From assembly GCA_963169755.1 (NCBI GenBank), contig CAUJFC010000108.1:1-36534 (forward strand): a stretch of 36,534 nt of DNA. The letters run 5' to 3'. The translations under genes and the position numbers were made by a program. Source of the DNA: Actinomycetota bacterium. Lineage in GTDB: Bacteria; Actinomycetota; Acidimicrobiia; Acidimicrobiales; Iamiaceae. The notes below the pieces were generated by a model, which saw nothing but the letters and a program-made list of their open reading frames with translations, ran no database searches and was not told the DNA's origin. Positions 9,655 to 19,260 of the stretch are shown here, one piece after another (position 1 is the first letter of the stretch; each line of letters starts with the position of its first letter).

Positions 9655-9707
9655 CGGTTGGTGGGCCACCAGGGACTCGAACCCTGAACCGGCGGATTAA
9701 AAGCCCG
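9655..9707 (-). repeat. distal att site: displaced 3' part of tRNA-Lys
   Basis: cggttggtgggccaccagggactcgaaccctgaaccGgcggattaaaagCccg; 51/53 identical to 19181-19233, same orientation. Confidence 0.88.
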
Positions 9708-9950
9708 GCGAGCATCGTGCCGTTGCGTACCGACAAGTGCCCTGACCTGCTGTTCTCTTGGGCCGCCCGTCCCGTCCTGTACCGCTGGACCCACCCCGTA
9801 CCACCGAGTTACGCGGTGAGATACGCGGTCGTGACTCCGGCGCGCCGCGCGATCGAGGCGACGGGCATCACGTCAACGGCCTGCATTCGCGCAGGACTGC
9901 CAATCCGGGGAGGACGCGATATCTTCAGGCACTTCCAACAGGAGGCGATG

Positions 9951-11060
9951 ATGGGCTATCCGCGGCGTCTGGCAATTGGTGCGATTTCGACTGCGGCAGT
10001 GGGTACGGCAGCCCAATCGTTGCCGCCTGCGGCGGAGGCGTACACCAAGAAGATCAACAACTGCAACGATTCGAGCATCACGTGGTTCTTTGAGAACCAC
10101 AGTTTGTGGACCTCAAGCAAGCAATCGTGGGTGCGCTCTGGCATCAATGATCTGCAGACACCGCTCGACTACGACGGCTCAAAGCTCATTACTATGACTG
10201 AGCATTCCTCCACCGCCGTACAAATCAAGGACAAGCCCTTGGGAGAGTATGGGTCGTCCGAGTGCGTATTTGGAGCTTCTTTCTGGGTAAACTCGAACTA
10301 TTCTAGCTCCTCCTTCTACAGGCGTGTCGGGCGGCACGAGATGTTCCACCTTGCTGGGGCTGAGCACGGCGGACAACACGATTCATTCGACGGCCTATCT
10401 CCGTCCACAATGGCTACCTGTTTGTCGGCCAGTCTGTTCTCGAACTCTGGCTTAGAGCAGGATGGTGCCGCGTACGCGAACTTCCTACATTCCTCACTTA
10501 GCAATCGTCAGTTACACGCGAACGTTGGGTTTGAGCAGGGTTTCTCATATTGGGGCCGAAGCAGTGGAGCTGGTCCGGTAACTGAGCACGGGTCGGGTGG
10601 CGCCACCGGGCCCGGCCACATCCGCTACAAAGCAGTGGATGTTGGCGACTATCTGTTCCAGACAATTCGCGCTGTAACTGGCAACGACAACGAGACGTTC
10701 CGCGCCGTAGCTAACGCAAGGTCATTGAGTTCAAATTACAAGACGGTTGTCGGAGTGAACCTCTACCGGCGCACAGTGAATTTTCCAAACAATAGCCCGA
10801 ATGGCTGCCAGTACCCCGCTGGAATCGTCGATCCGAACGGCTCGCCCTCTGTTGGAGGTTGGGTTAGGGCGACCGGCGGGTCAGCGGAGGTCGGAACCGG
10901 GTGGACGCAAATCAAGAGCAACGATCCATCTGAGTGGATTAACCCGCCGACAGCCGAAGGAATGGACTTCCAGGTCCGACTCAACGGCAGCGCTGTTGAC
11001 CGAACGACGAATGATCCACAGTACTTCGCGATTGATAACGTGAGAGGGGAAAGCACATGA
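9951..11060 (+). CDS. secreted metzincin-type zinc metalloprotease with C-terminal jelly-roll-like domain
   Basis: Signal peptide ending AEA; HEMFHLAGAEH (10335-10367) fits HExxHxxGxxH; downstream SPSTM possible Met-turn; C-terminal NVGFEQGFSYW...YFAIDNV; AGGAGG before ATG. Confidence 0.75.
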   Translation: MGYPRRLAIGAISTAAVGTAAQSLPPAAEAYTKKINNCNDSSITWFFENHSLWTSSKQSWVRSGINDLQTPLDYDGSKLITMTEHSSTAVQIKDKPLGEYGSSECVFGASFWVNSNYSSSSFYRRVGRHEMFHLAGAEHGGQHDSFDGLSPSTMATCLSASLFSNSGLEQDGAAYANFLHSSLSNRQLHANVGFEQGFSYWGRSSGAGPVTEHGSGGATGPGHIRYKAVDVGDYLFQTIRAVTGNDNETFRAVANARSLSSNYKTVVGVNLYRRTVNFPNNSPNGCQYPAGIVDPNGSPSVGGWVRATGGSAEVGTGWTQIKSNDPSEWINPPTAEGMDFQVRLNGSAVDRTTNDPQYFAIDNVRGEST

Positions 11061-12211
11061 TCTGTCGTCGGGACCTGGGATTGACGATGCTAGTTAGCCT
11101 GTTTGCCGTGGTCGGCTGTGGCGATGCCTCTACCACCTCCTATGGGGCACAGGATTCGCTGGAAGCAGCGACGCTTTACGGGGCGTGCGCTGACGAGAAT
11201 GTGGATCTCGCACCTCCTTTAGAGTTCCTGTTGAATGCCAGGCATTGGGACCGTGTATCGTCCGTGGATGGACTAGATCTGGATCGCTCCGAGGCGGTGA
11301 CGGATCGCGAGTCCTCCTCCGAGATCAAGTATACTATCGAGCGAGCAGTCGAACGAGGTTCCACTGTGAGGCTTAGGACTCACGAGAGCTTCATGCCTGG
11401 GATGGACTGGGCGCTCGTCAACAAGGCCGAGTTGTACGTTGCCTATGGCTATGAACCGGCTGAGGATGATGTGTTGGCTACCGCTCTAGTCATCCCCAAT
11501 GACGCCGACCCCTTCTTTATTGGATCCTGTGCGCACCGCGGAATGACGACGCCATTACTCCGGTCGCTTGGCAGCGACTACCGGACCTTCTTGACGGCGA
11601 TGATGGAAACCCCCATCGAGGAGCGCGGCAAGGTTGTGGATAGCTATCTTGGCGAGCCCGAGTCAGATGTTGGGCTCGTTCTTAATCCTGAGTCAGCGCC
11701 GACCGAGCTCCTAGATTCGTTGCACGACTATGCACTTGCGGTGCACGCCGCGTCAGACGCAATCAGCGGCCCTGGTACCCTATGCATGAAGATTGAGATC
11801 GGCTGGAATGACTGCATCGATCTCTCCCAATTGTCGGAAACCCCGCAGTTGATCACCGGCTATTATGGCGAGGACGGTGTTGTCGAAGTGTGGCTGATGG
11901 ATGAGAATGCCGACCTGGCGAACCCTATTCAGATGTTGGGCACGCTTAACATGCTAGAGGTAGCGGGTCCGGACTTTGGTGCGGAAGCGGGCCTCGCCGT
12001 AGGAGTTGTCGTCGATGGGAAGCTCGATAGCAAGACCCAGGGATCGATAGCTATGATTCAGCCATCGGTCAAAGTGACCGGCGTGGCCGCGGTTGATCGT
12101 CTCCTGGCGGACCGTGCACTCGCAACCTCGATCGTTGGTGCGGAGATCGTGAACGAGTTGACACGAGTCAGCCCCCCCATTGGCGATGACGAATCGCATG
12201 GTGAGAATTGA
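11057..12211 (+). CDS. orphan lipoprotein, no recognised family
   Basis: Signal peptide and lipobox FAVVGCGD; ATGA overlap with the upstream protease gene. Confidence 0.7.
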   Translation: MICRRDLGLTMLVSLFAVVGCGDASTTSYGAQDSLEAATLYGACADENVDLAPPLEFLLNARHWDRVSSVDGLDLDRSEAVTDRESSSEIKYTIERAVERGSTVRLRTHESFMPGMDWALVNKAELYVAYGYEPAEDDVLATALVIPNDADPFFIGSCAHRGMTTPLLRSLGSDYRTFLTAMMETPIEERGKVVDSYLGEPESDVGLVLNPESAPTELLDSLHDYALAVHAASDAISGPGTLCMKIEIGWNDCIDLSQLSETPQLITGYYGEDGVVEVWLMDENADLANPIQMLGTLNMLEVAGPDFGAEAGLAVGVVVDGKLDSKTQGSIAMIQPSVKVTGVAAVDRLLADRALATSIVGAEIVNELTRVSPPIGDDESHGEN

Positions 12212-12281
12212 CAAGCATGAATGATACCCGCTCTGATATGTGCCAATCAGCCGGTGAAGCTGTTGAGGAAAACCGTAATCT

Positions 12282-18954: not shown

Positions 18955-19061
18955 GGCCGTCGTCCCTTCGTCGAGCGCTCAGCAGCGCTACAGCAACGTT
19001 CAGGACGGCCATTGCGAGGTGGAGGCCATCGACCACCGCCCACCAGCGTACGCCGCCGAGG

Positions 19062-19128
19062 GGTGCATCGGAAGGTGCATCAGGAGGTGCATCGCGGGCA
19101 CGAACCGCGCAACTGGGCCTGATGCACC
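19062..19128. promoter_or_regulatory. 12-bp-spaced GGTGCATC direct repeats (x3) plus inverted GATGCACC
   Basis: GGTGCATC at 19062-19069, 19074-19081, 19086-19093; inverted copy 19121-19128, between integrase and att/tRNA. Confidence 0.75.
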
Positions 19129-19184
19129 GTCGCCGCAGGAGCGCTAGCGACGGCCGAAACCCTTACTGACCAGGGTGATTCGGT

Positions 19185-19260
19185 TGGTGGGCCACCAGGG
19201 ACTCGAACCCTGAACCAGCGGATTAAAAGTCCGATGCTCTGCCAATTGAGCTAGTGGCCC
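19185..19260 (-). tRNA. tRNA-Lys (anticodon TTT)
   Basis: Reverse complement GGGCCACTAGCTCAATTGGCAGAGCATCGGACTTTTAATCCGCTGGTTCAGGGTTCGAGTCCCTGGTGGCCCACCA folds as a complete tRNA with encoded CCA. Confidence 0.97.

Follow-up and report, generated by a model that had tools for sequence, protein, structure and literature searches.

The window analyzed here comprises positions 1–36,534 of contig C108 in the draft genome G000 (274 contigs, 92.7% complete) of an uncultured Acidimicrobiales bacterium. It contains a unit of 9,526 bp that is very probably an integrative mobilizable element (IME) inserted at tRNA-Lys(TTT) and accreted onto remnants of earlier related elements that resemble cis-mobilizable elements (CIMEs). 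Canonical IMEs encode an integrase and their own relaxase, and lack both a coupling protein and a type IV secretion system (T4SS) (PMC5704250). The unit carries its own site-specific integrase with attachment (att) sites at both ends and its own canonical relaxase of the MobF type, and neither a coupling protein nor mating-pair genes were found in it. A relative possesses the corresponding empty site, which is empty of a whole island and not of the 9.5-kb unit alone.

Attachment sites at tRNA-Lys

The unit is bounded by a 53-bp direct repeat (9655–9707 and 19181–19233) with 51 of 53 positions identical and a start-to-start distance of 9,526 bp. This bears out the initial annotation of this DNA, which described a 53-bp repeat with two mismatches over the 3′ part of tRNA-Lys at both ends. 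The 27-base exact core of the repeat had exactly two matches in the window (expectation in shuffled sequence 0.00), and a low-stringency search of the window for further att remnants returned only chance-level matches besides the two known copies. As had also been annotated, the intact tRNA gene (19185–19260) adjoins the integrase gene (17500–18954, minus strand), an arrangement expected of elements that substitute their own 3′ end for that of the tRNA.

The two mismatches (9691/19217 and 9704/19230) bracket positions 9692–9703, a stretch in the anticodon stem-loop. At 9704, where the tRNA has a T, each of the nine left-end copies in an alignment from G000, G001 and G005 has a C. This C is most likely derived from the element, which would place the strand exchange to the left of 9704.

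Relaxase and transfer functions

The relaxase exceeds the cut-offs of both NCBIfam MobF (NF041492) and Pfam TrwC, in line with its first description as a MobF-type protein. Its intact frame encodes paired Tyr residues as well as an HxxxxHxH motif, and its start is most likely near 16868–16829. The mobility genes have a guanine plus cytosine (GC) content of 68%. No T4SS or coupling-protein genes were recognized between the repeats in the list of open reading frames or with Pfam and NCBIfam, as the initial annotation had stated, and the coupling-protein families PF12696 and PF02534 had no match anywhere in the 92.7%-complete genome. The unit could alternatively be a self-transmissible integrative and conjugative element (ICE) with unrecognized transfer genes. 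This appears extremely improbable: although the plasmids with related MobF relaxases include some of the conjugative type according to PLSDB (186 of 709 records), all sizeable genes between the repeats are accounted for, neither T4SS nor TraB-type transfer genes were found in the element, and the genome lacks the coupling-protein families. A self-conjugative ICE was rejected for this lack of transfer genes.

Integrase and arm repeats

The integrase frame and its catalytic motifs are intact. An additional N-terminal region that resembles HNH_3 precedes the beta-beta-beta-alpha domain of the arm-binding type. HNH_3 matches were obtained for five of seven integrase relatives and were all weak, while a PDB sequence search with the N-terminal domain gave no clear answer on an HNH fold. 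With the integrase model, Foldseek returned nothing at E ≤ 0.001, and the HNH enzyme I-HmuI appeared among the non-significant matches only. Two residues that we take to belong to the HNH_3 active site, its first His and its Asn, were not seen in the aligned integrase family. On these results a proven HNH fold was rejected for this region; with the two residues missing, it is at most a DNA-binding relic. Searching the literature for tyrosine recombinases fused to an HNH domain yielded nothing relevant, and a search of IMG/VR with the integrase returned two weak matches only.

The left arm of ~120 bp next to attL is also kept at att copies flanking units that lack an intact integrase. On the other side, the distance of the right-arm repeats to the tRNA is equal in the window and in the congener G001, and nearly equal on contig C207 of G000. 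All four repeat copies in the right arm on contig C123 of G000 are altered in step, to GGCGTATC, GGTGTATC or GATACGCC. Any signal of covariation between the N-terminal domain of the integrase and the right-arm repeats was too weak, because the integrase gene on C123 is frame-shifted. The 12-bp repeats are putative arm-type integrase sites or regulator sites.

Related elements

A sister element is present in the same genome on contig C207, at tRNA-Lys(CTT) (integrase 84%, relaxase 76%). The congener G001 has an element at tRNA-Lys(TTT) (integrase 85%) that is split over contigs C129 and C433 and shows, across the two contigs, the same order as the window, namely att, arm, cargo, relaxase, integrase and tRNA. 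The G001 contig matches JAAZBK010000251.1 from an Acidimicrobiales MAG, which assigns the window to this order. More distant integrase relatives at five loci (L104, L122, L123, L126 and L127) adjoin tRNA-Lys(CTT). In G020 (C1:2705871-2709176; L145), a relaxase 75% identical to that of the window and a similar small upstream gene lie beside an unrelated tyrosine integrase, and modules therefore appear to have been exchanged. The G020 locus also adjoins a DNA methyltransferase-like gene and a Vsr-like gene.

An order-wide survey of att sites scored three candidates per genome. In other members of the family, the tRNA-Lys 3′ end is duplicated at a distance of ~9 kb or 40 kb from the intact gene, at L036 (G019:C47, 4152-13242) and at L038 and L039 (G002:C1, 2717254 and 2757276). 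No close relative of the window integrase was found there, so that the tRNA-Lys site seems to serve other elements too.

Empty site and older island remnants

Contig C81 of G011, which belongs to the same genus, shares synteny with the window on the right-hand side of tRNA-Lys. About 90 bp beyond the tRNA, G011 has a small membrane-protein-like gene and, further on, a row of glycosyltransferase genes, which in G000 is located on contig C134 (52–67% protein identity). On C134, a tRNA-Lys 3′ fragment in the native tRNA orientation follows the stop codon of this small gene within ~10 bp, and a second fragment lies 1 kb beyond the first. Since the right flank of the window, the tRNA and the C134-type gene row are adjacent in G011, the site is uninterrupted there, and everything between C134:3770 and C108:19184 in G000 would consequently be inserted. 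Judging from this synteny, all window DNA to the left of the tRNA is inserted, including positions 1–9654. The kinase gene at 2163–4397 had no match among 11 congeners, which agrees with the inserted state. With at least 3.7 + 19.2 kb, the island thus spans 23 kb or more and holds four att copies. Its youngest, tRNA-proximal unit is probably the 9.5-kb element.

Beyond the left repeat, the two ends of the element remain similar for another 20 bp, in that 9635–9654 resembles 19161–19180, which lies inside the right end. Positions 9575–9638 duplicate part of the integrase gene and resemble 18786–18849. Both likenesses to the right end of the element indicate that the integrase end of another element lies directly to the left of 9655. 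The IS-like (insertion sequence-like) remnant at ~9405–9575 is, by our reading of its translation, presumably the end of an IS3-type transposase. Position 9655 would accordingly mark the junction between two elements, of which the newer probably integrated at the tRNA and displaced the older one leftwards. Such a displacement corresponds to the scenario in which an IME decays to a CIME and an incoming IME then accretes at the end that carries the target gene (PMC5704250). The features of a CIME accretion array, in which remnants with att sites but no integrase or relaxase stand in tandem, are present both on C134, with its att copies 1 kb apart, and in the window, with an integrase remnant and att at 9575–9707.

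These observations change part of the initial annotation, which had described a complete element of ~9.5 kb and had suggested comparing related genomes for an uninterrupted tRNA-Lys locus. An apparently intact IME with a predicted circle of 9,526 bp is retained, and the uninterrupted locus exists in G011. The left neighbor, however, is inserted DNA and not a chromosomal flank, and the flanks of the element are non-contiguous in G011, a result that the initial annotation had itself named as refuting, so that the interpretation as an IME stands while that as a single insertion fails. A single insertion with chromosomal DNA directly to the left of 9655 was rejected on the basis of the empty site in G011 and of the integrase and IS remnants at this position. 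It is also conceivable that the repeat at 9655 is an unrelated tRNA relic and that the true left end lies elsewhere, for example if the whole island of at least 23 kb had moved as a composite. C134 holds the leftmost tRNA-Lys fragments, and recombination between outer sites could therefore excise larger units too. We nevertheless consider such a composite very unlikely, because the 9655 copy has the conserved left arm of the other left ends and the gene order in G001 reproduces the unit from att to tRNA.

In the mechanism proposed for the IME, the tyrosine integrase would recombine a short core in the tRNA-Lys anticodon stem-loop. Integration would duplicate the 3′ part of the tRNA, with the element providing a new 3′ end on the integrase side, and excision would yield the 9,526-bp circle. 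The MobF relaxase would then nick an origin of transfer (oriT) and lead one strand out via the conjugation apparatus of another element. Earlier related elements would have used the same tRNA, their decayed remains, with tRNA-Lys 3′ fragments as borders, having been pushed away to form the island.

Several points weigh against this interpretation. Neither an excised circle nor transfer nor an oriT was seen; the absence of coupling proteins rests on an incomplete genome; one integrase relative (L125) adjoins tRNA-Thr instead of tRNA-Lys; and C134 and C108 are linked in the 274-contig draft by synteny with G011 only, not by contiguous sequence. The unit might also be a fixed island whose genes and repeats persist after the loss of excision and transfer. 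Although the genome contains no helper system or coupling protein and the adjacent units are decayed, the integrase and relaxase retain intact frames and motifs and attL and attR are still identical at 51 of 53 positions, and we regard a fixed island as possible but unlikely.

Cargo and neighboring genes

The features of the element and of the DNA to its left are compiled in Table 1. The three cargo genes sit in a stretch of 57% GC, and neither the protein encoded at 9948–11060 nor that at 11057–12211 had a family match in Pfam, NCBIfam or PHROGs.

Table 1 Features of the IME and of the adjoining island DNA in the window (contig C108).
Feature	Position	Strand	Basis
Further inserted island DNA (two-component system and others); not adjacent to tRNA-Lys in the empty site	1–8154		Kinase distribution; G011
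AAA/DUF4143 ATPase gene, older island part	8155–9405	+	Pfam
Probable remains of older element: IS-like remnant (~9405–9575), integrase-gene fragment (9575–9638), right-end sequence (9635–9654)	9405–9654		
attL, a duplicate of the tRNA-Lys(TTT) 3′ part that forms the left end of the 9.5-kb element and putatively the old right end of its decayed left neighbor	9655–9707	-	51/53 identical to 19181–19233
Left arm, kept beside att copies in G000, G001 and G005; two 12-bp repeats (9806–9829) at its end	9708–9829		Nine-copy alignment, TRF
Cargo: secreted protein with metzincin-type motif HEMFHLAGAEH; ATG at 9948 after AGGAGG	9948–11060	+	Sequence
Cargo: lipoprotein-like protein, otherwise uncharacterized	11057–12211	+	Open frame
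Cargo: GNAT acetyltransferase fused to a phosphopantetheine-attachment (acyl-carrier) domain	12282–13076	+	Pfam PF13302 and PF00550 above cut-off
MobF relaxase-helicase (frame open from 17147, i.e. 13518–17147)	13518–16868	-	Pfam TrwC, AAA_30; NCBIfam NF041492 MobF; TrwC/TraI structures
Small winged-helix-like protein; homologue adjoins the G020 relaxase	16927–17376	-	Weak LexA DNA-binding match
Tyrosine integrase with HNH_3-like N terminus; catalytic R, K, HxxR, H and Y all present	17500–18954	-	Pfam Phage_integrase; alignments
Right-arm repeats: 3x GGTGCATC with 12-bp period, and inverted GATGCACC (19121–19128)	19062–19128		Kept in G001 and C207
attR, inside the intact tRNA-Lys	19181–19233	-	Repeat comparison
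tRNA-Lys(TTT), target gene, intact; 3′ end probably element-supplied	19185–19260	-	ARAGORN, Rfam

An imperfect palindrome of ~90 bp with the ends AGTGAGTTCCAGCAG occurs at 7455–7549 of the window and on contigs C123, C134, C106 and C222, the five places being 97–99% identical. On C106 it adjoins an apparent IS30-type transposase start, and it is probably a miniature inverted-repeat transposable element (MITE) or an IS end.

Cassette-like arrays and hybrid sites

In the congener G009, the 6-kb contig C238 (L032) contains four clear tRNA-Lys sites (1764, 3248, 3970 and 5409) and a degenerate one (~4570), all in one orientation and 0.7–1.5 kb apart. The sites have the conserved arm and enclose one or two small genes each (GNAT, two nucleotidyltransferases, a HigBA-like pair). 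This array looks integron-like, without attC sites. An integron as such was rejected, as the integron integrase model scored 32 bits versus a cut-off of 265 and the sites are tRNA-Lys 3′ ends, not attI or attC. A speculative and quite unlikely extension would be that the tRNA-Lys 3′ end, together with its short conserved arm, serves this Acidimicrobiales genus as a cassette boundary, at which tyrosine integrases supplied in trans collect and exchange cassettes of one or two genes in an integron-like system spread by MobF IMEs. If the G009 cassettes were exchangeable, they would represent a tRNA-based analogue of an integron array.

Two further sites were noted in G000. On contig C47 (L009), positions 183–260 form a hybrid att site with a 3′-most part of the tRNA-Lys(TTT) type and an anticodon part of the tRNA-Lys(CTT) type, which suggests recombination between the two tRNA-Lys islands. 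On contig C123 (L010, 5215–5791), a fragment of the tRNA-Lys(TTT) type that carries the left arm precisely truncates the frameshifted integrase gene, at about codon 180, so that an att-like junction lies inside an integrase gene.

Comparison with known systems

IMEs and their accretion are an already known kind of mobile DNA, and what is new here are members of this kind. A literature search, with most subscription journals outside its reach, found no paper on IMEs in Acidimicrobiales. Our data document a probable MobF-type IME family in this order, with an empty site, the use of both tRNA-Lys isoacceptors and stacked, decayed predecessors. They illustrate how one tRNA gene may turn into a gene-collecting hotspot, and offer att sites and arm motifs that can be tested for an integrase whose HNH-like N terminus is unusual.

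Like the tycheposons, as these are summarized in PMC10872708, the element has a tyrosine recombinase and a tRNA border; by that description tycheposons are cargo elements of 4–200 kb, whereas the element here carries a MobF relaxase. The additive flexible genomic islands of Ca. Methylopumilus (PMC10872708) are similar in having a variable island that is marked by recurring tRNA-Lys 3′ ends in several copies. They differ in having 20-bp repeats and no described relaxase element, in contrast to the ~50-bp copies, conserved arm and IME found here. Among actinobacterial plasmids, the nearest MobF relaxase (Iamia sp. SCSIO 61187, NZ_CP050950.1) is homologous over the relaxase and helicase domains, but shares only 33–36% identity over ~68% of the protein, and the relaxase of the window is part of an integrated element. 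With the MOBF-carrying IMEs of Mesorhizobium (PMC8627217), which were described later than the 2017 IME review (PMC5704250) and several of which are located at tRNA genes, the element shares the chromosomal location and the MOBF relaxase, while the host phylum differs. A parallel in architecture is provided by canonical IMEs and tRNA accretion such as that of IME_Sag2603_tRNAlys (PMC5704250), with a site-specific integrase, a relaxase, no transfer apparatus, insertion at a tRNA 3′ end and a tandem arrangement with a decayed element. Compared with the canonical IMEs of that 2017 review, none of which was found there to have a MobF relaxase, the element described here, known from its sequence, adds a MobF relaxase and a host from the Acidimicrobiales.
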